DNA from: Bryoerythrophyllum caledonicum
Taxonomy: Eukaryota > Streptophyta > Bryopsida > Pottiales > Pottiaceae
Assembly: GCA_963971425.1 (NCBI GenBank)
Contig: OZ020517.1
Coordinates: 6,388,501-6,452,500 of the forward strand
DNA length: 64,000 bases
Direction of reading: 5' to 3'
Part shown: in pieces, positions 28,742 to 61,100 of the stretch
How positions within the stretch are numbered: position 1 is the first letter of the stretch
Layout of the letters: every line of letters begins with the position of its first letter
Position numbers and translations under genes: made by a program
Notes under the pieces: model-generated
Seen by the model: the letters and a program-made list of their open reading frames with translations, nothing else
Databases searched by the model: none
Told to the model about the DNA's origin: nothing

Positions 28742-28751
28742 GATAACCTTA
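28742..28751 (+). repeat. Left 10-bp target-site duplication of copy 1
   Basis: GATAACCTTA, identical to 43312-43321. In the LINE frame it encodes the D-N-L residues that are repeated at the right side. Confidence 0.88.
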
Positions 28752-28814
28752 CAACGACGCTAGCATGTGAGCAATGAGCAGTGAGCGGTGAGCAGTGAGC
28801 AGTGAGCAATGAGC
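28752..28814 (+). repeat. Left terminal inverted repeat of copy 1
   Basis: The end CAACGACGCTAGCATG is followed by heptamers GAGCAAT, GAGCAGT and GAGCGGT. It aligns without gaps to the right terminus read on the minus strand, including the single GAGCGGT variant at the same register. Confidence 0.88.
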
Positions 28815-29926
28815 CCTTTAGCTAAATTTGGAAAAAATAGTACTAAAAAGGAATTATTACTATTTTAAAATATTAGGAATTACTTAAATTAGTATATTTG
28901 ATGGTCCTATGACAAAGTGTTTATGATTGCCTTTGGCAATAAAAAAGTCGTGAAGGAGTTGTGAATGTGGCCGTTTTGAAGTGAATTGTCTAATTAACAG
29001 GCATTGTTGAAATCACTCATTGCTTTTGAGTAATTCCATTTGGTGTCGTTGCTAGATGAAACATACTGGAAATTGAATATTTGGATGAACAGAGACTGGA
29101 TGAAACAAAAAAAATATTTCTGTTCGTCTATGCCAATTCAGATGTGAAATTTTTTATTTTGTAGTGAAAAGTAAGAAACCTAATAACAAGCAAGAAGAAA
29201 TCTAATTGACTCCAATATACGATTAAAAGCAGGGAACACATTTTCTTTTCTGAGAAAAATGCCTCCTTGATACCAAAGAGGCCATTTGATGCTCCAATTA
29301 AACAAAAAATTGCAAAAAAAAAAAGAACATCGAATGGACCTTTCACAAATCCATTTAGCAGCCCTAAATTGAATCCAATGTTTCAAACAGGTGAAGAGGG
29401 ATAAAATCCACACAAAAAAAAACCAAAAAAACTAAAATAAACCTAAAAAAAACACAAAGAACACTACAGAAAAAAAAAAAAAAAAAAAAAAACTACAAAA
29501 AGACAATACACAGAAAATAAAAATGAATGAAAGACATTATACAAAAAGAATTACACCAAAAAACCACTAAAAAAATTAGAAAAGCAGAAAAATTAACACA
29601 AACATAAACACAAAAAAACACCAGAACAAATTTATAAAAAAAAAAAAAAAAAACCAAAAAAAAACTAGAATAAAAAACAAATTAAAAAAGGATAGAAGAA
29701 AAATATTGCTAGGGTGAAATGGGCTCTTCGGTACCGAAGAGCATAATTGGAGCTCCAATTTTTTTTAAAACCATTAGAATGGATAAATGACTTCCTAACA
29801 AAGTGAAGGACAATGCAATTATATAACCTATCAATATAACAGTTTTGCAGTTTAGGTCCCTATGCACATGAAAGAAATAACCATGCGCCTAACTATATGA
29901 AGGCGACCTAGGTTTAGGCTAACAGT
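28815..29926. other. Left subterminal non-coding region of copy 1
   Basis: It contains A-rich low-complexity DNA (about 29400-29690) and a perfect 20-bp palindrome at 29723-29742. No gene is seen. It lies downstream of the transposase stop codon and presumably includes its 3' UTR. Confidence 0.5.
29723..29742. repeat. Perfect 20-bp palindrome, left-most member of the copy 1 palindrome set
   Basis: GCTCTTCGGTACCGAAGAGC is identical to its own reverse complement. It shares the CTTCGG..CCGAAG core with ten other sites in this element. Confidence 0.85.
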
Positions 29927-32900
29927 TTAGAGATCAGTGCCTCGCAGAAGTTGTTGAATCTCATCAAAACTGAGACTCGCAGCGTGAACATATTTGTCGA
30001 CTTGGCAATCAGCCTTACAGAGGTATCTGTAAACATAATACAAATGCTTGCAGTTCAGCCACGGTTTCCGTTTGCCAAGTGCACCAGTGCTCATGGTAAC
30101 AAAATAATCACAAGTGCAAGACGGCAAGTCACTAAGTGAAATTAGATAGGTCTTCTGCTTCGGGAAGATACCCGAGTCCAATGTGATGATTCTGCCATAA
30201 CCAGGGTATGGAATCATGGTAACGGATTTCACGGTTGCCCGAACATTCCTAGCAGTCTCCCATTTGTTAAGGTGATCCACGGTGGGTGCCTTTGGATTCC
30301 TCTTTATCGTCCTTCCATAACGCTTTGTTGGATGGCCACCCGCATCTGGGGGGGTGGGGCTTGGAGTGTTTGAAGTAGCTACAGAAGGAGACGTGTTGAA
30401 AAGGCGTCTAGGAGACATATTAAAGTCCTTCGTCTGAAGCTCAAATCCCCCATCTTCCAATGCCAGAATCTCAGCCTTAGTGAGATTTGTACCACGTGCA
30501 ATTGGCCAAGTAGTTGGAAGAGGGGGCCAATCGTGCACATATCTAAACTTGCCAGCTTGGACACAACGCACAATATCGTCCGAACAAAACCAGAAATCAG
30601 AAGAAATAATTAATCTGGTCCCCCACTCTGTCATTTTACCATTGTAAGTAGGGGCAGGAGTGCCCTTTACCTTGTCACGGCATACCTTGGCACCACATTT
30701 GGTCTTCTGGCCCACTTGGACGGCATAGCACTTCTTGGTGACTTTAGTGCACCGAGCAATGTGCCATTGATGTGGATTGCACTCAGTTTCTAGGATTGAA
30801 GTTGCGTGGCCCCGGTCTGACAATGGTTCTATGGGTGGAGTAATAACCACACTTGAAGGACCGGCGTCTGTTCGAGATCGAGTAGAGCGGGTTTGTACAC
30901 GGGGATGAGAGTAGTTCACCTTATCATGGCGGTGAGAGTCTTCATCAGATCCCGGCGGAAGATCTAGTTTTCGCTTCGTGGATCCAAATACCTCCTCGCC
31001 TTCCAAATGGGGAACTCGAGTAGCAAATTGATTTGCGCCCGGGAGCTTTTTGATTGCTGTAGCAACCTTTAGTGGATCCTTAGATCGTCGGGCTGCCCGT
31101 AAACGAAGTTCGTCGAGGTGGGGCCCAGTTCCCGAAGCGTGACCCTGTAAATAGGCCCAATAGTTTGTGGTTTGCATCATTGCACGCATCATATCGTCCG
31201 TCGTAGCAACATATAAGCACGTCCCTCTGTTGCCCGACATTTGTAACCATCTATTGTGCACCGTCTCAGATAGGTTGCAGGATGGCATTTCAGCCAATTC
31301 TTCAATGTCGAGGTCCTGTCGAGCAGTCAACAGAATTCAGGGATTTAGGTTAGGGCATGTGAAATCGAAGAGCGAAGATACATAGGCTTAGGGTTAGTGT
31401 TTAGAAGACGTAGAGTATGTATAGAAGGAGGTAAATCAATGTAGGGTTAGGTTTGTGATAACTTACCATGTCCATGAAGCTACCCCATTGGCGGTAGCGG
31501 AAGTGCCAAAAACCGAGCCAATCGTCCAACTCACGTACAGCCTCCTCCGTTGCTGCACGAGATGAGAGCCACCAACCTTTAATGCCGAGGTATAATACTT
31601 CGGCCTCTTCAAATGATTTTGCATCTCTATACTGTCTACATAGCTTGATATGTTGGTCTTGTAAATCAGTTCGGATAAGCTTCTTTGTGTGCCGATTGAG
31701 TGACGTTACCCAGTGAAGAAAGCATGTCCTCTCTCTATCAACCATCTTTGCTGTTGGGTCGCCGCTTCCGTAGATTATCCTCACAGCGTTCCAGTTAGCC
31801 TGCGCACTATCCGCCATGAAACCCTTGAAATTAGGGTTTGTGATACCGTGGCGAGCCATCACATTGTTGAGAGCTGACCACATCAACTTCTGAGACTCAA
31901 CGTCCTCGCTCTGCATATCACATATGGCGATGCTCATCACCCGACAGTATTCAGGATCGTACACATGGCATGCCATTGTAGTCCAACTCTTCACACGTTT
32001 GACATGGTCGAACATGATCCAGGAGTTCTGCAGGTCTCCGCCAATTTGCATTCGCCTTACGAGATCCACACCGCTCCCTGGACCTTCTTCAGACATCTTA
32101 AAGAGGTACACCTTATCTTTTCCTTGTCCCGGGAAAACGCTATCTTGGATGTATGCGTAGGGACTCTTCAACTTGAGTTTGATGATGTTGTCTAGTGGTC
32201 CTCCATTTGCATTGGGACGTAATGTAGAGATAGCGTTGCGGATGTTGGGTGAGCTTAGGATTCGAAATCTCTCCATCACCGCCACAAGGGAATCTCCACG
32301 AAGGGGTTCAGGGACTCCCTCCCGATCAAGTGCAAACAATTCGGTGGACAAGAACTCTTTACTTGCGGCAAGAGCAATTGCAGAGTTCTTGCCAGTTGGG
32401 GTTCTGTGGACCTCATTACTCACAAGCTCAGAAACTCTTTGAACAGACTCTCGACATACTCCTTTTGCGGTCGGATGTTGGTGGGTGCCCACGTGAATAC
32501 AAGCTCTTCCAATTCCACTCTTGTTAAGAATGTAATACATTCTGCACGGACAAGAGGCAATGCAAGAGGGCGGAGACTTACAAATTCGACATTGGACAGT
32601 GGAATGCGCCGGTGGCTGCTCCCCTACAAGAAATACGTGTGTTGTAATGCCATCCCACTCCGTGTCGTTGTGGAAGCCGGAGCGACGCAATCTCGGACAA
32701 CTATCGTTCATGCATTGGAGGTGACCGACACAACTTGAGTATCTGAAGGTAAGACCATAGTCATTGACAATGTTAGTAGTATGTGTTTTGGTCCATAGAT
32801 GACCATCATATCTTTTGTCCATCCCTTCCATCTTACGAGCGTATGATGGAGACAAATTACTCGGCATGGGTGGGAACTCAAACATTATGTCACCATTGAA

Positions 32901-33551
32901 CTCTGAAGGAAGAAATTGGACTTTCTCACACCGTAGAGCATCTAGATCCAAAAATTTCAAATCACTCTTTCCACGTGGTCTGCACTGTAACTGCTTAAGA
33001 CAATTGAGGATGCTTGTAGGATCTGAGGCTGGATGAAGAGGAGGACGTGAATTCTGAAATGGCAGAGTAGAGACTGACTGTGACAAAGTTTCAGGGACTT
33101 CAAAGACAGTTTCTGTAATTGGAGATAGGAAGGAGAAACGGGAATTTGATCTAGGAACGGATTCATCATCTGAGGACTCACTAAGTAGGATAGTCGCACT
33201 ATCAAATGATTCAACTTTGACTGGAGCTGGACGAGACAAATGCACAGTCGGCTTCTTTGATTCTGAAGTGGGAACAGAGGGGCAAAGGATTGGATTTCCG
33301 TAAACCCTATATTTTCCTGGCAAAAGTCTCCAGAGAAGGTCACCATCATGGATATGTTTCTTCTGCATAATTGTAGACAGTACTAACTCTCCGTTTGGAT
33401 CAAAGACTTCCTCCTCAATCCACATAGACCTCATAGCATAATTGAAACGATGAGTGAGCATCGATTCAAAGACCCATGCTACGTCATCGTCACCTAGAGG
33501 GACGAAGATCGGAACGCTTCCATCTCCACCACGAATAGTTGCCATAGCCAT
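29927..33551 (-). CDS. Mutator-like (MULE) transposase with SWIM zinc finger, copy 1
   Basis: Two exons, 33551-31467 and 31315-29927, joined by a 151-bp GT-AG intron (donor GTAAGT, acceptor CTCGACAG), encode 1,157 residues with no stop or frameshift. A Cys/His cluster (C274, C280, C285, C321, C324, C330, C334, C351, H353, H357, H359, with HQHP) resembles the WRKY-GCM1/FLYWCH-type domain of MULE transposases. The DDE core shows D515 (FDHVKR), D581 (FMADSAQANWNAV) and the downstream C610-H613 pair (CFLHW) typical of Mutator transposases; the third acidic residue is not certain, with E669-E674 or a nearby residue the candidates. A SWIM-type zinc finger (C1095-x-C1097...C1117-x-H1119) closes the protein. 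It is divergent from the ParB-methylase gene. The homologue at 53514-57303 has the same intron position. Expected role: cut-and-paste of this element. Confidence 0.85.
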
Positions 33552-34222
33552 GGCGTGTGGGGGGACGTAAACTGCTGCTACTACTACGGAACTAACCCGG
33601 TACGAACACTCTTACGAATGTGGGAATTTGTATGAATGGATATATGGTAGAAAAAGAAGGGTTGAAATAGAATAGAGACGTTGTGAGTATATTAATTTAG
33701 TGAATTTAAAATGTAAGTTTTAGTAGTTTGGTAAGTTTTTTAGAAGTGCTAGTTACAGATGAGCAGCAGCTGGCGGCTAGCATGTATAAAATTAGAAATG
33801 TCTAAAATTATGTTACGATACACGTTGATCTAATAGTCTAATGAAAAAGTGGAAAGGAAGCTAAAATGATGGCTACAAGAAAGGTTATTGCAAGTTAAAT
33901 CTTAAAGCATTAATCTCGTGGGGTGCAAGTGACAATGCTTTAATCTCGTGGGGTACGAGTATTTAGAAATTGGGTTTTAAATATTGTGATACTTGAGTTT
34001 ATTTCTAACATATCATAGTAGAAGGTAGTGGGCAAATAATGCAAATGACAGTTAGCATTGATTAATTTTGGTTATGAACTAATATTGTCATTACATATAA
34101 TATTTACGCCTATTCAATATAGCTGAGTGGTTGGTATCTTTGAACTTTAGGGTAGCAAGTGGGACCGCATAACTATAGTGTGGAAATGCTTTAACGTTAA
34201 TGTGTAGTGGTTGAAAAGAGGA
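33552..34222. promoter_or_regulatory. Divergent promoter region of copy 1
   Basis: 671 bp lie between the divergent start codons of the transposase and ParB-methylase genes. It contains a short tandem duplication (GC.TTAATCTCGTGGGGT, at about 33908 and 33939). No specific factor site is recognised. Confidence 0.5.
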
Positions 34223-37200
34223 ATGCAGGAAGAGGTGAAGCGCAGACGCTATAAGTCTAGATTCAGGTTTTCCACTCCAAAGCAGCTCCTGAAGTCTAGA
34301 ATGGCACGACGAACAAGGTCTAGGAGATTGGATTTGGATGGGACTTCGCTTAGTTCAACTTTTGATAACATGGTGTGTGGTGACCATTTCGAGCGCGAGG
34401 AGGAGGAGACCGGCATTGCGAGTTTATTAGGCAATAGGGACGACATCGTTCAAGGAATGCAAAGTGTTATAGTCATGGGAGAAGATGACAATTTGCGCAT
34501 GACCAACAACAACCCTGTGGAGTCAGCATATGACAAGGAAAACATGGATTTTTCGGGCGATGAATCTCAAAGGGTAATTTCATAACTTTTCTGATGTGGT
34601 GTAATATTTTGAATTTTCTAATGAGGTTTTGAATTTTTGTCTACATCATGAGTGGGCTTTGGGGGCTTTGCAGTATGTTTGGATTTTAGATCTAAATTTT
34701 TTTTCTATCTAAAAAATTAAATTGCTTTCCAAAATACATGGCTACTTTTTAAACCTGAAGTATCTGCGATATATTTTCTTATTATAAACACCTTCACTAT
34801 GTGTGATTTTGAGCGTGTAATGACCACCACATGGTAGAACATAGATCCATAGAATTATGCAATGTGTAGTACAAATGTATGCCAAAATCTTGAGTCAAAG
34901 AACGCTGACACTGTCCGCACTGGGATCGAAAAAACCACAGTGCATTTTTCACTAGACTCTGATTTTTACAATCCGTACGGTCAAATTTTATGAAATTTTT
35001 TATGTGTCACATTGTAGTAGTGAACTAGAAGATCCTACGGTTGGATATAGTAGGAAGTTTTTACACCCAGTATTGCAACGCCACATCTTAGAAGGGTAGT
35101 TTTGAAGTGTTTTTGGTGTGAAATTGTCAAGGAATTCTAGGGGTACGTCAAGGGGAAGCGGAAAGTATGCCTATATCTTGAGTCAAAGTATGATGACTAA
35201 AATTTTAGATCAAATGGTTAATAGTGGTAATAAATTGTTTCAATTAGTCTTTCAACCATGCATCTCCAAGTAGTTCTATTTAAGTGTTTTGGTGTGAAAC
35301 GGGATGTAATCATGTGAATGAAGTTGTGCCTTTGAATGGATGTGCGTATAATGGATGAGAAGTTGGTAGGTCATTGGGGAGGTTCACGTCTGTTTGATTT
35401 CTCCTTTGAGTGTTGTCGGAGAGGGGGCGAAGTTGTTTTCAGGGAGATTTTTGGGAGCGGCCTGATGTTCTCAGTGTTGCAGTGCGTGCGCGAAGGGTTT
35501 GAGAGGGTTTGAGTTCGCAAGGATTGCAAGCATTTCGCCACTTCGTCAGGTGTGTTCGGCAGTCGATCATCTCAGTCCGCCACTCTTATGCTTCAAGCAC
35601 ATTCGCAAAGTTTGTCGATCATTGCTGAAATGAATCGTCAGTTTGAATCTGGATTCTAGATTTCGGTGTCGGATCTGGATTTTGAACTATTCTTTGTTGG
35701 GGTACTGAGACTTTAACGCTAGATCTTGATTCTATGAAGCTCCATAGTATGATCTCGACTCTGAAGATGTGAAGTAACTTTGAAGTTCTGTCGGATCTGG
35801 AACTTCGACGTCGATCTCGATCTCGATCTTGATGTCGATCTCGATCTCGATCTTGATGTCGATCTCGATCTCGATCTGGATCTGAAGACGTGAAGTTCGC
35901 AAGGGTCAATGAGACTCCTTCGCTGCCGAAGGAGCATGCTTTCCACTGCTTAGCATCCGAGACTCATCACCTTCGAGACCTATGATAACCTAGTAGCAGA
36001 ATGTTGCTTCTACTGCGGCAGCCTCGTGAGTTTGGTGGCGCCTGCATCGTAAGTCGGTGTAGATGTAGGAAGCAACCGACTCTGAACTTTTCTATAAACT
36101 GACGGCCTTCGGTGCCGAAGGAGGTGATCCAGCCTGCCTTCGGTGTCTATTTCGTGTCAAGGGTTTGACTTCGTTGGATGAAGAAGCGACGTCAATATTA
36201 TATAATAAGCTGTTTTCTTGGGGGGTGACGGTGGGGAAGGCTGAGTGTTGTGGGAACATGATTGAGGGCACCACGTGTTGGGACAAGCGTCTTGGGGTTG
36301 GGTGTGTTGTACGGGTTGGCCTGGGTTACGATCACAGTGGTGGTGGGGGACCATATGACACTGGTCAGCACCTAAAGCAATGATCGATAGAATTGGGACT
36401 TTCTGTTGCTACGGCATGAAATGAGTGAAGGAATATTGGGGGGCTGTACTTTTGAAAGGAATAGCGACCTGGTTGATCCTGCCAGTAGTCATATGGACGT
36501 CTCAAAGATTAAGCCATGCATGTGTAAGTATAAACTCTTTTGTTCTGTGAAACAGCGAATGGCTTATTAAATCAGTTTTCGTCGATGGTACCTTGAAACT
36601 GCGATTGGCTTATTAAATCAGTTTTCGTCGATGGTACCTTGAAACTGCGAATGGCTTATTAAATCAGTTTTCGTCGATGGTACCTTGAAACTGCGATTGG
36701 CTTATTAAATCAGTTTTCTTCGATGGTACCTTGAAACTGCGAATGGCTTATTAAATCAGTTTTCTTCGATGGTACCTTGGCTACTCGGATAATCGTAGTA
36801 ATTCTAGAACTAATATGTGCACAAACTCCCGACTCGGCTGGCCAGGAAGGGACGTATTTATTAGATGAAATGCCGATGCCGGTATTGCGGTGAATCATGA
36901 TAACTTGTTGAATCGCACGGCCTCTTGCCAGCGTCGTGGTTTCATTCAAATTTCCGCCCTATCAACTTTCGATGGTAGGATAGAGGCCTACCATGGTGGT
37001 AACGAGTGATGAGCCTCACCTTTCACGTGTCGATGGCCTGTCATGAGCTCGTGTCGATGGCCTGTGTCGAGCTCGTGACTTTGCAGGAGGGAGTGTTGTC
37101 AACCTGTAACGCGAGGGGGTGGGGAGAAGTGTATGCTACTGGTGCCAAGTTCCGCCGGGTCAGGCCCACCTTGTCCGGCATCAGTGCGCACATTGTGTTG

Positions 37201-40200
37201 ACTTGCAGTCCCACTAGGGTTTCGGTGCCGAAGTGTATGGTTTTTGGTGCCGAAGTATGGAAAGTATTATCAGGGTTTCGGTGCCGAAGTATAGAAAGTG
37301 CTGATGTTCAAGGGAGCACCTTAGTGCTGCATGATCGACTGGAGCTCATGCGGCCGCGACACGACACGACACAACAGAGGCGGCCGCACCATCGACAGTG
37401 TGCCATATTATTCAGTGTCGAGCATGAGCTCATAATTTTCAGTGTGCCATATTATTCATATGTATGCTCGTGCAGATGTGTATGCCTGTGTCGCAGCCGT
37501 GGTGTGGGCCTGGAGGTTACACTGAGGTTGGAATGTGAGGTTCCAAGTATTGATCGCGACCTTCACTTCACTTCAATTATTCTTGACACTGAGGGCCTTC
37601 GGTGGCGAAGGAGATGATCTAGCAGGCCGAATTTTTCTAGAAATTACGTTTAAGGTCAAAGTAATATTGACATCCAGTATGGTTCAACGTATAATCATAG
37701 AAACCTGTGAGTCTCGGATGCTAGCTCCTGACGTCTATTTGAGAACTCTATTACACATCATCATGTCGTTGAGAACTTAGGTGACCACAGGGCTTTCGGT
37801 GCCGAAGGACGAAATTAGTGATGAGTTCACGACTTTCTGCATCAGATGATGACGTGGGTGCTTTTAGAACTTGACAAGTCCGTCATGGAAATTTAATATA
37901 TTGTGTCCCGATCCGTGGCCTTCGGTGCCGAAAGACCCTCTCTTCCAGACTTTTGATAATCGCTCGTTTGCAGCTTCTTCGATTTTGAAGGTTGAGGCTG
38001 GCAAAGTTTCTTTATCTCGAGATCTACTTCCAGCCTGATTTTTATCCTTCGGTGCCAAAGACAGTTTCACAATTATTTTATTTTCCCATTCCGATCTCGA
38101 CTCTGAAAAGTGATGCTTGTTGAAATGGTTTGATCTGTAAGCGTTGATTTCTTGGTCCATTGTCTTTTGTTCTAACATGGAATTACAATTTGCAGATGGA
38201 CGTTAACGAGAAGATACGGGAAGTCACTGTTCAGGCTACACATGGGAGAGATCAGGCTGACGGTGAAAGAATTGCTTCGTTAGGGGATGAGGTTTCGCGT
38301 AGAGTCGAGGATGTAATTGGAGGCTCGGTTGTTATCGGCGACTCACCTAATCATGAAGGTGCAGCGGCTGTAGCGGGCGAGGCGATAGCTGGAGGCCAAT
38401 CAAAGAGCATTGATGGTTTGGGTGGAAACAACAGTATGAGTCATCTAACCGTAGATGAGGCTGAGGACGCATTCAAACTAAAGGAAAAACTTGATTCGAA
38501 TTCAATCATTCAAGAGTTAAGGTTCAATCCATTTTCTCAGTCCAGGTTGAAGATTCCATTGTGCAGGATGATACCTCTACCATTAGTTCGACCACTTCTG
38601 CTCTCCGATGTCAGAAGGTTGGAGTCTGAGTTTGTACATGGATACCGTGAGGGTGACCGTGTATTTTATGTTTCCATTACCGACGACAATGGGAACAGTC
38701 GCCAGGTTGATGATGAGATTATCAAAACTTGGGACCTCCAATGGGTGTATGAGAACGACGATTTTGAATCGGAACTGTTAAAGCATGCCAGTTGGTCCCA
38801 GTTCTCTTGTAAGATGTTCTTTATCTGGGACGGCAATCACAGGCATCAGGCCTGGTCAGGATATATTTCACGCATGCATTTTGCGGATCGGAAGTGGCAT
38901 TACTCGGTAGACTGTATCATATTGAATTCCAAGGGGAGTACTGGGATTTTACTTAATGCAATGAATGACATCAATCGGTGAGTTTTCAAGACACATGTTC
39001 AAGGTCAATTACCAATGGTTTTTCGTTGGATTTTTATGGCTAGATATTAACGAATATGATGTTCTCACTTCCAGCTCTACTGAGAACGCTCATGTGAAGA
39101 CTAATCTAGTCCATCGTTTGCACCGCATCAACACATATGGACAATTGAAGCTAACCGATTTTAAGGACCTTCTCACCCACGAAGAATATAAGTCCTGTGA
39201 GAATCGGCCCAAGACTACGGCTTGGTATCCTCTGACATCAGAAGTGTTCATCAAGTTTTTAAATCGGGTATAGTTTCCTAAATTTTTTGGACTCAGAATT
39301 TGGGTTAACCATTTAGGTATGCTCGATGAGCTAAATTGTATGGAATTTGCAGCATGAGATTGCCGCAGCTGCAGATGAAGCAGGTCGACTCTATTTGGAG
39401 CGAACTTCTCCACAGAGCAGGACTTCTCAAGGTATTCACAACGCAATGAATGAAGCATCCGTCGCAAAGTTAAAAAGTTTCAGGACAGAATTCGACAAAA
39501 TGGCAACAGTGGCTAATCCAAAGCATGGCCCCGAATTCTTGGATGCGGTCAGTTCTCCTCCACTCTCTAATTTATGTTCTGATTCAATTTGATTTCATTC
39601 TATTGAGAAATCTACTCATGCTTGCAGATTAACTACCATTGGTCCAATTTCGAGAAGCCGGAGATGTCTTTAGAAAAACTACAGAAGGTTTCGGGAACTA
39701 CTGTGCCATCGCAATTCAAGGTTCGTTGGTTGCAATGGTGGAACGCTGGCGAAATGAATCGAGTTGCTCTAAGATTCCCACCTACTGGAGTGACAGATGA
39801 GAAACTCGATGTTTGGTTGCATAAAGCTTCGTTTTGGGCTGAGGTAAGTCATGTCATTGCTTCAATCATTATATCTACTTCTCTGTAAGTATGATCACTA
39901 ATGTGGTTTTTTTTAATCTATCAGTTGGAGGCCGCGACAGTAAGAGTCGTTAAAGAGACTCTAGCATTGGAGAAGTTGAATGTGGACTGGGAAACGAACT
40001 CCAACGTTGACGAGATTGCTGATTACATTGAGAAGTACCGTATCATTGTATGGGACCAAGCCTTCTACTCTATATTCAGAAAGCAAGGAGGATTCGATCG
40101 GACAGCTATCTTCCTCAAAAATGAGGGAAATGAAAAGGCCATGCAACGACTCGTTTACCGGTAAGTTCACCTCAGGTGTATAATGTCTTAATGAAATTGA

Positions 40201-42531
40201 CTTTGATAAGTTAGCTTCAATACTTAAGAATTTGTAGTTTTATGATTTTTGGATTTATTTCTGCGAGAGAACAATTTGATTTCTTTGGTGCCAAAAGGGA
40301 GAGTCCGGAGTTACATAGAAATTTAGATCCAAAGCATGTATATGAAATGTCTAATGATCCCTTCTTATTGTGTAGATATTTTAAAAGAGAACTGCACGGC
40401 AAAGGTGTCATTGATCGAAAATCAATGCCCAAGTTTTTCGGCGCCTGGACAGAAAAGGGTTCAATGTGTATGCTTACTGCTGCCCAACTGCGAGCGTTCA
40501 ATTCATCCGAGCACCAGTCCTGTCCATGGTACCTTGAGTGCCCTCGCAAGTTTGCTCCAGCGGACGAGGAGGAAGAGAAGGCTAAACAAGCACCACCTAC
40601 TGAACTAGTTCAGGATCTCGATGATCTTGCAGAAGACTTAACTGATTTAACTGAGCCAGCTATAATTGTGACAAAGAAGGGTGGCAAAAAGGCTTTGGAG
40701 ACGATGGAGGGGAAGAAGAAGAAGGATCCAATAGTTGGTAAGAAAGCGAAAGCTAGTGTCTCTAAGGGGAAGGAATTGGAATCATCCACAGTTGAAGTGG
40801 ACCAGCCTCATGTTCCTTCAGCTACAACTACAGTTCCATCTCAAGTTCATACGGTGACCGACACTCCCTTGTACCCTCCTGAATTGCTTTCTGTCACGAC
40901 TGAAGAATTTGCTGCTTCGCAGCTCTATACCAAGAGCTTCACACGCACTGTTACACACGGGGTTGAGGCAACCGTTTTACCATTGTGTACTTCCATTCCA
41001 ACGCTCATTGACTTCATGGTTTCGAATCATCAACTTCCTCCAGAGTGGTTGAAAATCTTGTCTTTTGCTCAAAAGGTATTAAATTCAAACCTCTCGTACT
41101 AATTGTACTTAATTAATTTTTAAGATCATATACATGTGCATAGTTTTCCATGATACTGTTGTTGATTATATATGCCCTCTGTGCTAGGCTGGTCGAGGGA
41201 TGGAGCGGCGCCTTGGTGGAATTCCCAAGCGTGAGGCTTGCCTCGATCTCATTATAGCGGACATGCCAGATGGTTTGCCCATTCCTGGTTTGTCTCTTAG
41301 CCACTCAGTCATTCCAAGTTGGAATGATTTGACAGAGGACTGGTCGGAGCCAATTTTTGAGTTCGCTAGGGACACTCTCCAGGATGACGGAGCTATTGTA
41401 CTCTTCCATCCTGATAATCCAACCGTTCGTGAAGCAACAGACTCTTTTGCGGAGGCCTACGGATTTGCGCCCCTCCATGATTGGTGGGGCGTTAACGAGA
41501 TGCATCTCACGTCTTATAAGAGTGAGAAGTGCACTGTAAGTTTGACACCACACTTAGTCCATCTTGGGGTTCAATTTAATTTCATTTCCTTTATCCTTCT
41601 CATTTTTTTATTTTTGCAATACGCAGACAAAGCGATTCTGGATCATTCTTTTCATCAAGACATCCTATAAAGATAAGAAGGTTCATTCAAGGTTTTCAAT
41701 TGAGAAAAACTTGGATGTTAGCAAAGTGGAGACTGACATCGTTGGTGAGGGAGTTCTCCATAACTTTTTGACCGCCAAAATGTCATTGAAGAATGGAGAC
41801 GTACCTTGGCGAGGGGCTAGAGAAAAGAGCCCTATTCTACTCCAATTGTTGATAGAAAGCTTCTCGCAACCAGGGCATGTTGTCCTAGACTGCAACGCAT
41901 CTACCGGTAACTTCTTCTACTTTCTATTCTCTTTAATCTTGTTCTATCATCACTCATTATTTACAAGTCTAATGGTGCCTCAATGATCCTAGGTGCGAGC
42001 GTGCATGCTTGCAAGAAAATTGGGCGCCACGTGGTTGTCTTGGAGGCCGAAGCAGACATCTTTGAAGCTGTGCTTGCCCCTCTCGAATCATTGGAGATGT
42101 CAGAGGACTTAATGCAGAAGAAACGGAAAGAACCGGATTCTTCTGGCAACTCCCTTGTGGTTAGGCCTTCTAAAAGGGTCCCTAAAAACCGATTGAGTAA
42201 GTAAGTCAAATCCTTGCATTCTCATTGTTCTGGTGAATTTCCTATCCTACAAATTGTCATTGTTGTAGTATAATTTCTCACTTCTCTTCACTAATGTAAC
42301 AATGTTTTCTTAATCAGTTTGGTAGATCAAATGAAGAGTCCGCCTAGCCCGATGTCTTTGCCTTGTTATATTGAGGCTATTGCGATTCAGCTCGCGGAGA
42401 TTCAAACGCCACATCGTGCGCCAATTTCACGAGTATATGATAGTAGAGTGCACAAATATCTTGATTTGGAGGCTGTGGAAGCTTTAGAGGATGGATCTAG
42501 TGCTGGATCAGCCAGTGCTGGAAGTTCCTAA
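34223..42531 (+). CDS. ParB-like domain fused to N4/N6 DNA-methyltransferase-like domain, copy 1
   Basis: Eleven phase-consistent exons: 34223-34573, 38196-38977, 39075-39267, 39353-39547, 39628-39843, 39925-40160, 40376-41075, 41188-41535, 41627-41906, 41993-42200, 42318-42531; 1,240 residues, no stops. An Arg/Lys-rich start is followed by a ParB-like domain (about residues 236-370: IPLCRMIPLPLV, then DGNHR at 329-333 with HQAW). A helical middle and a Lys-rich linker lead to a beta-class amino-methyltransferase fold: DLIIADMPDG (910-919) replaces the DPPY motif, LQDDGAIVLF follows, and VVLDCNASTG (about 1092-1101) replaces the FxGxG SAM loop. Order and spacing match the Pfam N6_N4_Mtase family, but the catalytic motifs are altered, so methylation activity is doubtful. 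The first exon joins across a 3.6-kb intron by phase and by its basic character matching copy 2; that link is the weakest. It may act on the element's palindromes (inference). Confidence 0.8.
34640..35150 (+). repeat. Dispersed repeat, copy D, inside intron 1 of the ParB-methylase gene
   Basis: Blocks such as ATGCAATGTGTAGTA, CTTGAGTCAAAGAACGCTG, TTACAATCCGTACGGTCAAA and TTTTGGTGTGAAATTGTCAA match copies A and C. It is probably a passenger insertion. Confidence 0.55.
35812..35882. repeat. GATCTC-type minisatellite
   Basis: Hexamers of GTCGATCTCGATCTCGATCT recur about three times with GATGTC interruptions every 24-30 bp. It produces an artificial Asp-Arg repeat frame on the minus strand, which I do not call. 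Confidence 0.8.
36468..37010 (+). pseudogene. Diverged 5' fragment of 18S rRNA with internal tandem duplication
   Basis: From GACCTGGTTGATCCTGCCAG the sequence follows the 5' end of nuclear 18S rRNA through GATTAAGCCATGCATGTG, GGTACCTTG, CTACTCGGATAA.CGTAGTAA, TTATTAGAT, TTCATGATAACT, ATCGCACGGCC, ATTCAAATTTC.GCCC and GGTAGGATAG.GGCCTACC, about the first 340 bases of the gene. A 46-bp segment (36550-36595) is present five times in tandem to 36779. Many substitutions and missing helix arms show it is not a working rRNA. It lies in the 3.6-kb first intron of the ParB-methylase gene, in the same orientation. MULEs are known to capture host gene pieces; that is the likely origin. Confidence 0.88.
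36550..36779 (+). repeat. 46-bp tandem repeat, five copies, derived from 18S rRNA
   Basis: Units start at 36550, 36596, 36642, 36688 and 36734 and end in GATGGTACCTTG. Odd copies read GCGAATGG and even copies GCGATTGG, so duplication proceeded at least partly in pairs. The last two copies share TTTTCTTCG where the first three have TTTTCGTCG. Confidence 0.9.
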
Positions 42532-43242
42532 ATCACCAGGGTTGTTGGTAGGCTTACGGCTACTTCAGTATGTTTTATTTTGTGCAATTTTGTTTCCTGA
42601 CCATGCGACGGTTACCATTGTTTTTTCTTTTAATTTTGAACTTAATAGTGCGACTAAAAGGGCCACTATTTTTGTGTTCTAATACATCTTAAAGCCGTTG
42701 CATTGCAAGTCCAAGAACTCTATTTCCTGAATTTTGAGTATTTGTTCCCCTTGATCCCACGCATCTCTAATCTTGATTTTTGTCACTAGTTATTTTTAAA
42801 CGACAACCAACAAGCTTCTTCGGCACCGAAGGTTGCTCTCACCTTTTTTTCTAGTTAATTTGTTGTTTGTCTGAGTTCTCTGCCTTGTCTCGTATATATC
42901 TCTAAAATTCTATAAACTTACTTCACTCATTGCGGTTTTCTGATTGTCCCAGTACCCCAACTAACATCTTTCATTTCCAAGTCATTAAAAAATCTGAGTC
43001 TTAACATCCTTAAAAACATCACCATTTATGGACAGAGTCATTCATCTCCATTCATCCATGCAATCTATCATCCATCTACATTCATCTTTGTTCTCCAAAG
43101 ACGTAGAATAATGGCCTAAATACCACCATTACTCTACTTTTAATGACTTATTTCTTCAATGGATGTAGGATTCTCGACTAAATTTTTAACTAAACTTCAA
43201 ACAAATTTCTAGGTAATTGGCCTAAAATTTCAAAAATATTAC
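42532..43242. other. Right subterminal non-coding region of copy 1
   Basis: It lies between the ParB-methylase stop and the right terminal repeat. It holds one palindrome (42818-42831) and several short CATC-rich words at about 43030-43100. No gene is seen. Confidence 0.5.
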
Positions 43243-43311
43243 CTCACTGCTCACTGCTCACTGCTCACTGCTCACCGCTCACTGCTCACTGCTCGCATGT
43301 TAGCAACCCTG
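43243..43311 (-). repeat. Right terminal inverted repeat of copy 1
   Basis: Read inward it starts CAGGGTTGCTAACATG, followed by about seven heptamers, mostly GAGCAGT with one GAGCGGT. It is the inverted partner of 28752-28814. Confidence 0.88.
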
Positions 43312-43416
43312 GATAACCTTAGATTCGATTCGACAGTTGAATTAGAGATTTCCGAGTTGTTTGGAACGCCGTTCGGGCTCAGCCTCTTAGCAACGAATGT
43401 AGACCAATTTTTTTAA
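43312..43416 (+). pseudogene. LINE reverse-transcriptase relic, continuation after the transposon
   Basis: Starting with the duplicated DNL codons, the frame reads RFDSTVELEISELFGTPFGL and then about 13 more codons to a stop near 43416, typical of the conserved region downstream of the RT core in plant LINEs. It is the direct continuation of the 28030-28741 frame. The first 10 bp are also the right target-site duplication. Confidence 0.8.
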
Positions 43417-50710: not shown

Positions 50711-50819
50711 AGAAGGCGAGCAGCACCGTATGGCAGAGTAGTGGAAGAACTATAGGTGGAGCAAAGACGACGACGAGGGCAAGGGGAGTCGGCAACAATC
50801 TCCTGGGCTCAGCTTTAGC

Positions 50820-52872: not shown

Positions 52873-52932
52873 GAGGGAGGCGTGTTCATGAGCGGAGAGC
52901 GGAGAGCGGAGAGCAATGAGCAGAAATTCCAG
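52873..52932 (+). repeat. Left terminal repeat of copy 2
   Basis: GAGGGAGGCGTGTTCATG leads into GAGCGGA heptamers (three) and GAGCAATGAGCAG. The CATG followed by heptamers is the arrangement of both copy 1 termini. Confidence 0.7.
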
Positions 52933-53513: not shown

Positions 53514-56500
53514 CTAAGTCCAAGGGTGTGTCAAAATGCCATGTTCAAGCACCTCCTTCACCTCATTCCAGCTAAAGGTAGAAGCATGGATGAATTCAAT
53601 GGTAGGTTTGAATCCACAAATCTTCAAGAGGATGAAATAGAGATGTTTGCAATGAGAATATAGGTTCCTCCCCCTAAATGTTTTTGACGTCTTCTTGTAC
53701 GAAGGACATGAACAGTGGGGGAATGAACTCACTGTAACGGAATAGGTTGCTATTTCGGGTGGAGTACCAAGAGAAACAAGGAAAATGTGACACCCCAACC
53801 CAGGACCTGGGAGCATTCTGACGGACTTAATGGACGCCGTGAGGGAGTCAACGGACCCCATTGACTTTCTTTGTTTCTCATTGCGAGCCTTGGAGGTGCG
53901 CTTCACCCCCTTTCCATCCCTCTTGCAAGGAACTTTGGCAGCATCAAGGGGCACAGGGATCGAACTCAAGTCTTTTGGTGGCCGATCGTTGGAAAACAAT
54001 CGACTTGGAGGAACGTGTTGCCTTTGAGGGAGTTGAAATCCAGCCGCCTCGAGATCCTCAACCTCCCCACGTGTAAGATTAGTACCCACCACAACAGGCC
54101 ATACGTCGGGGATAGGAGGCCTATCTTGATTCTTTTTATATTGAACCACCCACCTACGCCTTGTACCCTTCACACACCGATCAATGTCATCGTTGCAAAA
54201 GTAGAATTCAGTGGGCTCCAAGACAGTCTTCGTTGGGTGTCGATAAAAACCACTGTATGTTGGTGCCGGAGTTGCTATTCCACATCTCACAATCCTCTCC
54301 TCACATTTCTTCTTTGTTACGGCCCGTTGTGCCCAACAAGCCTTTGCTGAGTTCTTTGGCAACCGAGCAATGTGCCACTCCGTCAATGCAACATGGGTCT
54401 CTTGAACTGCTGTGACACGGCGTAGTCCAACCCTTTGAACTAGAGACAACAATGGTGTCACTTGTGCTTGTTGTATCGGAGACAGATCATCATCAGAGAC
54501 GCCTAGGTCAACACGGACGCCGTTATCTTCATCGATGATGGGAAGAGGGTTGGAAGTATAGCGGGGATAAGAGAAGTTGACCTTATCCGGTCGATGAGAT
54601 TCCTCCTCTGCACCAATTGGCACGTTTGCTTTGCGCTTGCGTGAACCAAAAACCTCTTCGCCGGCCTTGTTTGTTGTGCGGATACAAAATTCTACCGCCC
54701 CAGGCATACCTAGCATAGACTCCTTGAGCACACTAGGATCGCCAGTCCTTTGAGCTCTTCTCTCGGCTACTCGGAGCTTTAGCTCTTCCTTACTAGGCCC
54801 CGTTCCACCTACATCACCCTTGAGGAATTGATAATAGTTCACAACCTGCAGGAATGCACGCACGTAGTCGTCGACGGTTGCGACGTATAAGTCGGGACTT
54901 CTATTCCCCGAGCCTTGCTTCCATTTGTTGTGAATGGTCTCGGCTAGATTGCATGAAGGCACTTCGGCCAATTCATCGGCGGTCATGTTCTGCAATAGAA
55001 CAACAACAATGTGAAAAATCAAGAATTAAAAAGCCAAGTGACCAGTCATAAAAACCCATGTCTGTAACAACACATGAAAAGCGAAACCTCAGGGACCTAG
55101 GGTATCAATCACATCATATAGGGACGCAAGACAACATACAGATCCGAAAGAGAAGCAATACCGTGGTCATAAATCCACCCCATTGACGGTAACGAAAATG
55201 CCAGAATCCAAGCCAAGTAGTGATTTTTTCGAAACCCTTTTCCGAAACAGCTCCGGATATCCTATACCATGCTTGAAGCGCGTCGTATAGTCTATCGGCA
55301 TCCTCCATGGTGGTTGCCTTCCTGTATTGGTTACACAGGCTCTTATGTTGCTCTTGAAATCCTTCGGCAATGCACTTCTCTGTATACTTGATCATACTTT
55401 GTGCCCAATAAAAAAGACATGTTCGCTCCTTGTCCACCATGGCTTCTCCGCCTCCATATACAGCTCTCACCGCATTCCAGTTTGCCTGAGCACCGTCCGC
55501 CATGAATCCTTTGAAAGTCGGACATGCCACACCATGTCGTCCCATCACGTCATTTAGGTTCTCCCAGAATAGTACTTGCGCGTCTTTATCCTCCGACATC
55601 AAGTCGCAGCATGCAATGGTCATCACTCTGCAATATGTTGTGTCATAAACGTGACAACCCATGGTTGTCCAATCCATTAGGCGTTTGACGTGGTCGAACA
55701 TCAACCATGCATTCTCCAGATCATTGCCCGGTTGCATCCGCTTTACAAGGTCAACGCCCGAGCCTGGTCCAACTTTGGACATCTTGAAGACAAAGACTTT
55801 GGCTTCTCCTCCTACAGCCGCTTCTGAACCTTGACTCGGGAACTTGTTATTTTGTACAAACGCCCAATTACTCATTGACCTAAGTTTAAGGATAGCGTCC
55901 ATGACACCGTACCTCTTAAGGTACCGAAACGTCACCACCTTGTTTCGAATGCTAGGGGATCCTAGGTCTTTGCATTTATCTAGCATGAGGGCTAACTCAT
56001 CGACACTGAGGATGTTCCGCGGTTCACCCTCTTCACTCAACAGGAACTCTCCAAGGAGTTCTTTGCTAGCTTCTAACACAATGGCACTCTTAGTCGCTCG
56101 TGGAGTTCTCTCTACTTGCTCACTTATTAGACTATTGATCTTATCTTTCACCTCACGATAGGCACCAATCTTAACAGGATGCACATGTCTACCAAGGTGG
56201 ATACAAGCACGAGTGCAGTGGCGCTGACCACTCACATAATACACTACAGCATCACACGTGGCAATACACATTGGTGGCTCTCCACAGATCTTGCAAAGTA
56301 GCGTGTTTTTGGGAGCTTTCTGACCTACCTCAAATGTCATCGATGTCATTCCATCAAACTCCAGCTCGTTCACTTCCGAAATACGATTATCTCGTTGAAC
56401 GAACGCGCAGTTGACGTTCTCGCAACGCAGATGCCCAACGCATTTAGATGTACGAAAGTGGAGGCCATCGTCATTCATGATGTTTGTCGTGATTGTCTTA

Positions 56501-57303
56501 GTCCAGAGGTGACCATCGTACCGCTTGTCCATGCCATGCATGTTACGAGCCTGTGTAGATGACGCTGATCGTGGAGCGGGTGGTAGTTCGAATATCACAT
56601 TGCCATTGAAATCGGCGGGAAGACAGTTGACCTGCTCGTGTGGTATGATGTCAAAGTCCAATTTCTTCAATGGATTCTTGCCGCCAACACGAGAAGACAA
56701 CCGCTTCAGACCTGCAATAACACTGACGATACCAAGTACCTTGTCCTGTTTCGGAGAGCAAGACATGGGGGGACAGGATATCGGTGGAGTAGATGTAAAA
56801 GAAGTGGCTCTAGGACGACACGACTTAAGAACACTTAGCTTTGGAGGGCAAGTCTTAGGGGGGGTGTCCTCATTGTCAGATGAGAGTAGGATGACAGGCT
56901 CAGTGTCTGGTTCGATCTTAACATTGACAAGAGCAGGAAGCAGTGTCTGCATACTACATGTTGTGGATTGACGAGAAGTAAGGTCTATAGAGGACGCACT
57001 TACCTGTGAATCTAGGCGACCATAGACCCTGTATTGGCCTTTTCCAAGTTTCCACTCTTTGTCAAAACTCTCATTCACTACCGTTTGTCGAGGTGTTGTA
57101 TACAACAGCTTCAAACAGTCATCATCATAGACTTCCTCCTCGACACATATACTCTGCTGTTGAAAACAAAATCGAACACTTAACGCCGCACTGGTAACTG
57201 TTGCAAACCCCTCATCACTCAAAGGATACGCAACAGGATCGCCAATGCCATTTGCACGGAGCATAACCATGGCGGGAAAAGTAGACCGAGAGGAGGAAGT
57301 CAT
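53514..57303 (-). CDS. Mutator-like (MULE) transposase with SWIM zinc finger, copy 2
   Basis: Two exons, 57303-55162 and 54989-53514, with an intron at the same place as in copy 1 (FMTT-NMTADELAEVPSCNL here, FMDM-DLDIEELAEMPSCNL there), encode 1,205 residues without interruption. Shared landmarks: KRYDGHLWTKT, the Cys/His cluster ending GRHVHPV, the FDHVKR aspartate, FMADGAQANWNAV with the second aspartate, and a CLFYW segment where copy 1 has CFLHW, so the histidine of the Mutator C..H pair is replaced by tyrosine here. The C-terminal SWIM finger is CSC...CKH followed by LYFILLK. The loss of that histidine may affect activity. Divergent from the ParB-methylase gene, as in copy 1. Confidence 0.84.
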
Positions 57304-58141
57304 GAGAATATCGAGACAGGTAAGTGAGATTAAACTCTAGAAGGGTATTGGAATATGGAGATGGAAGGTCAATATATGTATTACATCAAGATACTTTAAG
57401 AGAGAAGGAGCCATTGGATATTAAAAGGGTGATCGTTGAAAAACAGCGTTTGCCAGGGCTAAAAGAAGGGATCTAAAATAAATTTTGAATTGTAACCATG
57501 AATATAATTCAAAACAATCATTATTCTTTCAGTGGATGCCTAGGGAGGTGTAAAGTAGCTGTCCGCATTTAAGAATTAGACAGTCCTTGCTCGGATGGAT
57601 GTTCATAATTGGAAAGTCTTGCTTTAAAGGAGGGAGAAAAGCGGCGCAAATCTCCACTCCTTGTAGGATTCTCAACAATCACCTAATTTTAAAGATAGAA
57701 CAATTCGTCAGTGGGAAGGTTAGTGAACAGATCTTTTGGACTTAAGTAGAATGCTGATGAAGAAGGTATAAAGCAGCCTTCCGCAGTCAAGAATTAGACA
57801 ATCTTTACTTCGACGGATTTTCATATTTGGGAAGTATCGGTTGAAATGAGGTAGAGAAGCGGCGCAAGTCTCTACTTAGTTAAGAAAATAATACTACCAA
57901 AAATTATGAATTCATATAAAATCCTTGTAGGATTCTCAAATCACCTAATTGTAAAGATAGAACAAATCGTCAGTGGAAAGGTCAGTAGACAAATATTTTG
58001 GACTTAAAATAGATGTGAGCACATGCCGATGGAGGGTGTTATAGGGAACGAGGTTTGAATGTAGCATGGAATGAGATAGCCCTAGATATATCGACTTAGT
58101 AGAAAGGGTGGATATCAGACCGTAAGTAGCCTCTCTTTCAG
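57304..58141. promoter_or_regulatory. Divergent promoter region of copy 2 with tandem duplication
   Basis: 838 bp lie between the two start codons. Two large imperfect units (about 57540-57745 and 57755-58010) share AAGAATTAGACA.TC, AGCGGCGCAA.TCTC, CTTGTAGGATTCTCAA, TCACCTAATT and TTTTGGACTTAA in order; the second has about 50 extra bases. Such repeated promoter blocks could carry regulatory sites, but none is identified. Confidence 0.6.
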
Positions 58142-61100
58142 ATGGATCTGCGCGAGGAGGAATGCGGTGCGATCACGCGTGCAAGACGGCGCCGCGAGGG
58201 AAAGGAGATTTGCAAAATGCCCGCAGACGTTGGGGTGACGAAGAGGCGCCTAGGTGGAGAGTTTGCTAAGTTACCTGCAACAACAGTGGCTAGACGGATT
58301 TCACCAACAACTCCCATCCTCGAAGAAGAGGTACTAGTATTAGTTGACATGTCGCCTTTGGAAGTGATTGGAGCACATACAGCAGAGTGCGTCGCTAGGG
58401 AGGTTGAAGTAGCTTTCGAGCCATCCCGCTTAACAGACATTCAGGTATTTTTTTCATCTAATGTGTCGTCTAGTGGGTTCTGATTTGGAGCTACAAGGAT
58501 GTAGAAAATGAAAAGCCGCCTTCTAGAAGTCAAGGTGTTAAATAATGATGATTAGTCGCGGTTGCCATGTCACCAATTTCTCACAATAAAGAGAGGGGTG
58601 GAGGCCAAGCTGAAGTCCTTTCCTTTTCATGTGGTGGATAGAATTTGTGGGTCGAGTTAGTGCTATCACTTTGTAGCGTTGCTTGTATGCTCGTCATTAA
58701 GTTGAGCGCATTGCCATGAGGGGAACACATGTGAGATTGGTAAAAGGTTATGGAGTCAATTCATACAAAAAGTTTGGAAGGAAGAGTGTGAGGAAGTCTG
58801 AGAGGAACATTCGCAAGAGGAAGTTGCAAAAACAGGTCCGTTCACAATAGATTGGATAGTTTGTAGGTCTGAAATTAGGTGTGTTTGAAAGGTTTTGCGG
58901 TCTTGGAGGAATTAGGGTTTGAACAATTATCTCGGTTTTTGAGGTTTAGGGTTTGTGGGTTTGTGCGTTTTGAGGGTTTTGAAGGCTTTCTGGATTTCTG
59001 GGTGTGAAATTTGTTTGTTATAGGTATAATCCGGATTTTGTCCTTGTGTGATTGGTTTAGGCGGCTGACCAGGAGGAGAGGGCTGACGAGGCTATGGAGA
59101 ATGTGGACGAGGAGGGTGAGAACACTTATTGCGCCAACGGTAGCGGCGACGGCCAGGAGAAAAATGCCGAAAACGTTGTGGGTGATGACGAAGAGATGAG
59201 TGCGGAAGAGGGTGAACATGCCTACGCCTCAGACGCCGATGTTGAAGGCGCCAAGGCTGATGTGGATGCCATCCTGGATCTCTCAATGGAAGGGTCAGAT
59301 GGTAGCCCAGCGATTGAAGGGAAGAGGAAGAAGGGGAGGGGACGGAAGATGGCAATGGTGGAGGACGACGGTGACAATCTTGGCAGGGAGGAAGAGATTG
59401 ATGTGAAGGAGATTGAGAAGCGGATGGGAATACTTTACAACCCTGATTCCTTTGCAGCCATCACGTACATGCGTCGACAGCCACAGGACAAGTTCGACAG
59501 GTTACGCGTGCCTCTTTGCCGCATGGTGCCAATGCCGGAGCTTCGTAGCGTGCAAGAGACTGACAAACACAGATTGATGGACCAGTTCGAGCATGGTTAT
59601 TGACCTGGAACGGCCGTCTTCCATCTTGCACTAACGGGTCGTGACGGAGAGGAGATGGCAGTGTCAAGCGCAGTGGTCGAGCAGTGGTCGGAAGAGTGGA
59701 TCATAATCAACAAAGACTTTGAAGAACGGTTGAAGGGAGATGCGGATCTTGAGCATCTGAGTGGAAAGATGTTCTATATCTACGACGGCAACCACCGCTA
59801 TGAAGCTTGGAGGGAGTTCTTGGAGGAAAGAAAGGCTGGTGACATGGAGTTCATGCAAAGGAATGGTGAACCAGAGAGCATCATCCTTGATGTTGGGCCG
59901 AAAGGATTTCCGAAGATACTTGCGGCTATGCATGCTCTGAACAAGTAAGTCTACTACATATTATGCACATTGTTGGATTTGAAATCAAGACTGAATGTTT
60001 GTGCATGATAAACAGTGCTACAGAGAAGGCGCACATAAAGACGAATACAATGCACGAACTGGACAGGGTGAGCATATTTGGACAACGAGACATTTCATAC
60101 TTCAAGGACTTGATTCCTGAGATGGCGTACAACAAGTGTCTCAAGAGACAAAGGGATGCGTGGTATCCAATTCCTACAAGTCAAATGGTGAAAATCTTAT
60201 TCCAGGTAAGGTGTCATACATATACTATTGCAAATCAAGTATTTCAGTATTTCTAATGTTGATATATGCTGGAGTAGGACGAGATACAAGAGGCAGCCTC
60301 AAACGAGTGAGTTGCATACAAATTAGAGATTGAAAAGACAAAGCAGAGCGGTGTGGAGTTACGGAAGTTTGTCGAAGAGGGACTATCCGCCAAGAAGATG
60401 AAACTCCAAAAGCGCTTTGGGAAGCTCGCGGCTGTGGCCAACCCTGAATTAGGGCGTGAGTTCCTTGATCAGGTTTGAATCAACCAAGTTTTTCTTGTCA
60501 TCTTTTTGTAATGTCATTGTTCTTCCTCATCATGGTCAAGATGGTATGGGATGCCATGATGTTTTTTATTGGTTGTCAGGGCATTAGAGTTCAGCAAGCA
60601 CCCCATAGAGTGATGCCTTGGAAGCCCAAAACACGGGTTTGTTACGAGAACCAATATTTTTGGTTCTCGAGGCATCAGTCTATAATGAGCCTTGATGAGC
60701 ATTAGTACTCTTGGTATTGATGCGCCGGAGGCCTTGAAATTGGATCTCGTAACTAGACCCATTATATGGGCCTCCATTTCATCAATACCAAGTTCCCTGT
60801 GATACCTAATAGCAATTTTGGAATAGATGCCTCGGTGACCCTTTTATCATGTCTCGTTACGAGACATGTTTTAGGGACGTCTAGGGCGTACTTTCCTGGC
60901 TTGCTGTGGTAGCCATTAGCAAGCCCGGCCTTGATGGAAGGTGGCCTTGATTATAGGTCTTGTAACGAGACACACTTTCAGGGCCTCCGGTGCATCAATG
61001 CCCCGTTTGCCTTGGAACCAAATGGCAAATTTGGCATTGATCACCCGGTGGCCTTGATATCAAGTCTCGTAACGAGGCATGCTTTTTGGGTGAGCTAGGC

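Follow-up and report, generated by a model that had tools for sequence, protein, structure and literature searches.

Subfamily-specific palindromes accompany a putative ParB-like/methylase gene carried by a MULE-like transposon

Genes that join a ParB-like region to a DNA methyltransferase have been reported from algal transposons. The Ectocarpus element Sola1-1_Ec32 has an accessory gene of this kind, whose product its authors call ParB-like, and they suggest that proteins of this kind bind the element encoding them and modify it; similar proteins in transposons of green and red algae (Petroll 2025, Bostrychia) are cited in the same account (PMC12477816, in the part of its text covered here). 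According to the covered parts of two further papers, VANDALs are listed among the Mutator-like elements (MULEs; PMC6446971), and the VANDAL protein VANC binds short family-specific motifs, often situated in tandem repeats of non-coding DNA, and causes methylation loss (PMC5735166). Here we analyze a stretch of 64,000 nucleotides from Bryoerythrophyllum caledonicum (contig OZ020517.1, positions 6,388,501 to 6,452,500; hereafter the window) that holds two related transposons, element 1 and element 2. Each has a transposase gene, a gene for a putative ParB-like/methylase protein on the opposite strand, and short palindromes in its non-coding DNA (Table 1).

Three copies of element 1 lie at separate sites in the genome searched (eukaryotic, 437 Mb, 894 contigs). 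They show 100% identity (rounded) across 1,001 intron bases, and their target-site duplications (TSDs) differ: GATAACCTTA, CAAAGAAGG and ATTGTTTGTC, of 10, 9 and 10 bp, respectively. Since the three near-identical copies each have their own TSD, the whole 14.56-kb unit, including its second gene, transposed recently. The ParB-methylase gene sits within the transposon and travels with it.

The transposase of element 1 (29930-33611, minus strand) is arranged head to head with the ParB-methylase gene. The family is very large: first-look candidates, mostly unscored, number 1,775 for ParB, 1,649 for the methylase exon and 3,195 for the transposase. The genome-wide counts given below are among the matches listed (66 + 62 for the transposase, 147 + 150 for ParB and 150 for the methylase exon); scoring was confined to the best among 1,505 to 3,195 candidates, and some transposase matches are pieces of one gene. 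A divergent ParB or methylase match is the nearest partner within 20 kb for 42 of the 66 transposase matches listed in clade 1 and 46 of the 62 in clade 2. Across all 128, 88 have a divergent partner, one has a same-strand partner at 15 kb and 39 are without a listed partner; 88 of the 89 with a partner listed within 20 kb are divergent. The divergent layout had been taken in the first-pass annotation for an inherited architecture, and both the second pair in the window and the genome survey bear this out. The idea of a conserved host gene residing away from transposases was rejected, as the gene adjoins most of the transposase matches listed. Close copies show purifying selection on the ParB exon, with ratios of non-synonymous to synonymous substitution (dN/dS) of 0.22 and 0.24 in two comparisons, alongside 0.26 for the transposase in one; synonymous sites are saturated for most farther copies. 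The exon is open in four of the five matches at 100% identity.

The ParB-methylase gene extends from 34223 (ATG) to 42531 (TAA), with 11 predicted exons, 10 introns that are all GT-AG, a frame open throughout and a product of 1240 amino acids. This model, in which splicing is deduced from reading frames, agrees in position with the spliced gene first proposed, and its methylase part spans exons 7-10. The product had been described as a ParB/methylase fusion. For the C-terminal part this holds, as it passes the PF01555 cut-off; the N-terminal half is ParB-like in a weaker sense. It has a conserved pattern, IPLCRMIPLP...DGNHR, that resembles ParB, DndB and DUF1015, and its best profile matches are weak, with one row each for DUF1015 (0.0014), DndB (0.045) and a PHROG ParB-like family (0.11). 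Searches with this half returned unrelated weak rows or none from the PDB, and no match in the phage collection.

The spliced C-terminal domain of element 1 matches PF01555 (1.2e-9, 38.9 bits vs. a cut-off of 26.7) over a stretch (83-267) that starts downstream of motif IV, and the domain of element 2 matches PF01555 too. With a two-sequence profile, the best PDB match is CcrM (8.6e-9), followed by DpnA and MboIIA. Motif IV precedes motif I, the order found in beta-class enzymes. In the phage collection 231 records match the methylase at E ≤1, every one with <60% identity. A beta-class-type methylase domain with prokaryote-like relatives, as the first-pass annotation proposed, is supported by CcrM, DpnA, MboIIA and the phage methylases. 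Searches of viral contigs and of genomes from 84,980 prokaryote species, by pattern and then tblastn and built on short exact peptides, yielded no relatives.

The aromatic residue of motif IV stacks on the flipped base in methylases. Two aligned phage relatives have DLPFG and DLPYG at this motif; element 1 has ADMPDG and element 2 AEIPDG, which fit neither (D/N)PP(Y/F/W) nor DLPY. Among 20 further sampled copies the motif is mostly D[ILM]P[DE]: the first position is D in 19, the fourth is D or E in 18, N in one and Y in one (a copy without the other residues), and none has the normal aromatic motif, making canonical methylation doubtful. Decay of a single copy was ruled out as the source of this change, which is common to 20/20 copies whose methylase exon matches without a stop. 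Motif I of element 1 has one glycine fewer than the phage motif.

Element 1 carries repeats of the palindrome CTTCGGTGCCGAAG, and CCTCGGNNCCGAGG is found in other subfamilies. Allowing two mismatches or fewer, element 1 has 11 non-coding sites (a coding match at 42039, with two mismatches, is excluded): nine in the first intron of the ParB-methylase gene and one beyond each of the two genes. The window has seven occurrences of the word TTCGGNNCCGAA, all inside element 1, against an expectation of 0.04. When ten of the sites are aligned (37242 excluded), mean pairwise identity reaches 0.87 across the 14 bp but drops to 0.28 in the flanks on each side; the sites are therefore not fragments of one tandem repeat. 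Similarly, sites at locus L035 are distinct from their flanks (0.88 vs. 0.40/0.41), and the GTCTCGTNACGAGAC sites of element 2 are the better-conserved centre (0.85) of repeats that have diverged (flanks 0.55 and 0.52). A site follows the methylase stop in both elements, by 287 bp in element 1 and 294 bp in element 2, with differing sequences. In a scan for repeated palindromes, most loci from the 68% and 64% groups yield CCTCGGNNCCGAGG; another word leads in L032. Between subfamilies both arms differ jointly, CTTCGG/CCGAAG vs. CCTCGG/CCGAGG. Counts exceed the maximum of 60 shuffles in element 1 (12 vs. 7), L035 (6 vs. 4) and L034 (6 vs. 3). In an unbiased 12-mer scan the palindrome ranks first in L035 and L037 and behind two A-rich words in element 1; in element 2 it is outside the top eight words listed. 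The case for palindrome function is built on the dyad symmetry, on flanks that are unrelated in element 1 and L035, and on arms that change in pairs from one subfamily to another. RNA hairpins are thought an unlikely meaning, since the stems are short and sites also occur outside the gene.

The exact 14-mer of element 1 has 69 occurrences in the genome (vs. 4 for the reversed control), and 53 of these are within 10 kb of a ParB match with at least 77% identity or a methylase match with at least 84%. CTTCGGTGCCGAAG lies within 8 kb of 23 of the 24 listed ParB matches with at least 77% identity vs. 1 of the 123 others, and of 22 of the 25 listed methylase matches with at least 84%. Near listed matches of the element 2 type it is found in 0/150 cases at 8 kb and 1/150 at 12 kb. 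The element 2 palindrome has 65 genome places (control, 0), 50 of them listed. On contigs C1-C6, for which the listing is complete, it accompanies 13/13 close element 2 relatives at 12 kb (12/13 at 8 kb), 0/75 distant matches and 0/72 matches of the element 1 type. A third palindrome, CCTCGGTACCGAGG, has 300 places (reversed control, 0); two copies, C1:11.29 Mb and C2:38.51 Mb, have it between the genes and beyond both, and on C1-C2 it lies within 8 kb of 0/1, 0/21 and 0/48 matches in other classes. Two of the three palindromes are thus specific to their subfamily.

The transposase had been assigned to the MULEs. In the part of PMC6446971 covered, MULE TSDs are tabulated at ~9-11 bp; element 1 has TSDs of 9-10 bp in three copies and terminal inverted repeats (TIRs) of 56 bp at 92.9% identity. 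Read by eye, the protein shows D...D...C..H...E and CxC..CxH patterns, and Cys/His-rich regions. Its first exon has no Pfam match better than chance, and the SWIM family PF04434 matches weakly, in the element 2 transposase only (E 1.2, 9.2 bits, under the cut-off of 19.6). A search of the genome for the MULE domain PF10551 (best 150 of 384 candidates scored) gave 138 matches, and the starts of the 128 transposase matches all lack one within 3 kb; PF10551 matched 0/9 transposase members, with an hhalign probability of 0.6%. Among the candidates scored, no canonical MULE as defined by Pfam was found for these transposases. The TSDs, TIRs and motif resemblance that fit the assignment suggest a MULE-like transposase, to which Pfam and hhalign do not contribute.

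We propose, at roughly even confidence, that these are MULE-like transposons whose divergent second gene encodes a protein that recognizes its own element. The N-terminal ParB-like region, probably as a dimer, would bind the subfamily-specific palindromes, which cluster in non-coding parts of the element and recur past the genes. The C-terminal beta-class methylase-type domain would then act at the bound sites, either marking element DNA or, given the loss of the motif IV aromatic residue, serving as an S-adenosylmethionine-binding or structural module. The likely benefit would be an element that is kept expressible, through anti-silencing or self-marking. By analogy with VANC in VANDAL elements, we infer that these palindromes are where the protein attaches to the element encoding it; a ParB fold and an effect on silencing are likewise our inference, and the variation of the palindromes between subfamilies hints that the element may mark its own DNA or shield it. 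A more specific version, put forward tentatively, is a private parS-like code in which the ParB-like protein nucleates on its own palindromes, protein and sites diverge together until subfamilies cease to cross-react, and the methylase fold is now a reader or catalyzes another reaction that averts silencing.

Several observations weigh against this proposal. The ParB assignment falls short of significance in all libraries tried, and one of the five ParB matches at 100% identity, the C4:15.55 Mb copy used for dating, has a stop. Sites shared within a subfamily are expected from descent alone, and the symmetry of the palindromes is partly by construction, since the scan seeds on perfect palindromes. 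The count in element 2 (5 vs. a shuffle maximum of 7) does not exceed chance, and at L031 (0.87 vs. 0.80/0.72) and L034 (0.89 vs. 0.90/0.83) the sites are within tandem repeats whose flanks are almost or just as conserved. Sixteen of the 69 places of the element 1 14-mer are beyond 10 kb of any close relative, and the exact site is also near 2 of 125 distant methylase matches listed. The tie of CCTCGGTACCGAGG to these elements is less complete, as on C1-C2, for which the listing is complete, only 14/40 of its places have a listed ParB or methylase match less than 10 kb away and it is within 8 kb of only 3/10 listed ParB matches with 60-76% identity. CpG depletion was rejected as a sign of silencing, observed/expected ratios being alike inside (0.77-0.79) and outside (0.74-0.77) the elements. 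Finally, the altered motif IV makes any methylation activity of the protein doubtful.

The palindromes could instead be sites for the transposase or a host factor, acting in promoter control or synapsis, with the ParB-methylase protein working elsewhere or non-specifically. The transposase could be the binder, having Cys/His-rich regions by eye; palindromes are located both in the interval separating the two divergent genes and on the far side of each, positions from which a transposase or regulator might work, and many CCTCGGTACCGAGG places are distant from any listed ParB or methylase match. This explanation is possible, and we regard it as rather doubtful: 9 of the 11 non-coding element 1 sites fall within the first intron of the ParB-methylase gene, kilobases away from the ends, the five window sites of element 2 are in another intron of that gene, and no site with up to two mismatches was found in 30 transposase loci (L039-L068). 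An active DNA amino-methyltransferase (N6-adenine or N4-cytosine) that marks the element, the role suggested for the Ectocarpus protein, would accord with the PF01555, CcrM and DpnA matches and with the first acidic residue of motif IV in 19/20 copies. We consider it unlikely, given D or E at the fourth position in 18/20 copies where phage relatives have DLPFG and DLPYG, and the glycine missing from motif I of element 1. Gene capture by transposons is common, and some copies of this gene have stops, as a captured passenger without function for the transposon might. A passenger is highly improbable, as the same partner occurs in the same orientation in two clades (the first transposase exons of elements 1 and 2 are 43.7% identical), dN/dS is ~0.2 and the ParB exon is open in 4/5 copies at 100% identity.

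Table 1. Features of elements 1 and 2 in the window.
Feature	Position	Strand	Details	Basis
Left TSD of element 1	28742..28751		GATAACCTTA	TIR match, copy comparison
Element 1, whole transposon	28752..43311		14,560 bp; termini CAACGACG...CCCTG	TIR match; comparison with two near-identical copies elsewhere
Left TIR of element 1	28759..28814		56 bp, 92.9% to right arm; 7-bp unit (GAGCAGT)n	TRF
Palindrome CTTCGGTACCGAAG	29726..29739		974 bp from left end of element 1	
Transposase, second exon	29930..31336	-	CxC..CxH SWIM-like end	Translation
Transposase, first large exon	31404..33611	-	MULE-like motifs	Frame open in four best copies listed
ParB-methylase exon 1	34223..34573	+	Least certain exon	Gene model
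Nine palindromes, intron 1	35918..38060		0-2 mismatches; at 35918, 36107, 37220, 37242, 37276, 37597, 37794, 37920, 38047	
18S rRNA-like fragment, intron 1	36514..37090	+	117.7 bits	Rfam RF01960
46-bp tandem array	36548-36779		Within 18S-like fragment	TRF
ParB-methylase exon 2	38196..38977	+	ParB-like DGNHR region	Gene model
ParB-methylase exon 3	39075..39267	+		Gene model
ParB-methylase exon 4	39353..39547	+		Gene model
ParB-methylase exon 5	39628..39843	+		Gene model
ParB-methylase exon 6	39925..40160	+		Gene model
ParB-methylase exon 7	40376..41075	+	Linker and start of methylase domain	Gene model
ParB-methylase exon 8	41188..41535	+	Methylase motif IV ADMPDG	Gene model, motif comparison
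ParB-methylase exon 9	41627..41906	+	Methylase	Gene model, Pfam
ParB-methylase exon 10	41993..42200	+	Methylase, end of motif I and beyond	Gene model, Pfam
ParB-methylase exon 11	42318..42531	+	C-terminus and stop	Gene model
Palindrome CTTCGGCACCGAAG	42818..42831		287 bp past methylase stop, 480 bp from right end	
Right TIR of element 1	43249..43304			TIR match; TRF
Right TSD of element 1	43312..43321		GATAACCTTA	TIR match, copy comparison
Probable left terminal repeat of element 2	52890..52914		(GAGCGGA)n	TRF; likeness to element 1
Element 2 transposase	53517..57336	-	Exons 53517-55025 and 55117-57336	Sequence match to element 1
Element 2 ParB-methylase gene	58142..63915	+	8 exons (exon 5 from 61365)	Gene model
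Five palindromes GTCTCGTNACGAGAC, intron	60744..61185		0-2 mismatches; 106-107-bp spacing	

The element 2 ParB-methylase gene in the window has two in-frame stops. Directly to the left of element 2, a hAT C-terminal dimerisation domain is encoded at 50953-52848 (PF05699, 2.4e-10). Intron 1 of element 1 includes a 5' fragment resembling 18S rRNA (36470-37090), whose first bases look by eye like the 18S start and which the 46-bp tandem array has enlarged. When a hand-picked subset of the ParB matches was compared, DNA similar to this fragment was also present 1.3-1.8 kb from ParB matches in four elements with protein identity of only 48-50% (C4:15372606, C9:12815443, C10:22371991 and C14:249916). 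Elsewhere in the window are a fragment of a DUF92 membrane protein, probably a host gene exon (19577-20032, PF01940, 5.2e-27), and a tandem-repeat region (49705-50755) of 47-87-bp units with long open frames, related to 45791-46143.

The first-pass annotation had related the fusion to those of phages and bacterial mobile elements. The gene is indeed transposon-borne, but the pairing is not new, since algal transposons with ParB-methylase genes have been published (PMC12477816, in the part covered). The present gene is of the Ectocarpus type in having ParB-like and methylase parts in one protein, encoded opposite the transposase between the element ends, a match in which the ParB half depends on a motif and the single protein on predicted splicing. 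The transposase is of the Sola-1 class in Ectocarpus and MULE-like in element 1, which would tie the ParB-methylase architecture to more than one transposase class. The Ectocarpus account is without recognition sites in the text covered, and our search, with most subscription papers outside it, found no literature report of recognition palindromes for ParB-methylase transposons; within the literature covered, the subfamily-specific palindromes are what is new here. Transposon self-marking through DNA-modification genes has so far been a suggestion, and the palindromes make binding testable with a single protein and a single 14-mer; a relative in which both protein and site differ supplies a built-in control. 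The altered motif IV also casts doubt on whether DNA methylation can be assumed for proteins of this type.

The transposon methylase resembles CcrM, DpnA, MboIIA and the phage DLPYG methylases in its PF01555-type domain and in having motif IV before motif I, but differs from them in the replacement of the motif IV aromatic residue by D or E, in being joined to a ParB-like region and in its place in an intron-bearing transposon gene. In ParB-parS systems, clustered palindromic sites of 14-15 bp lie beside the ParB gene. Element 1 likewise has palindromes of 14-15 bp clustered by a ParB-like gene, but it is a nuclear transposon and its ParB relationship is not significant by sequence. With VANC and the VANDALs it shares an accessory protein in a MULE or MULE-like element, short family-specific motifs in non-coding DNA, often inside tandem repeats, and related families with different motifs; the motifs of element 1, in contrast, are palindromic and its protein has ParB-like and methylase parts. 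If the proposal is true, VANC-like self-recognition would be achieved here by a different protein.
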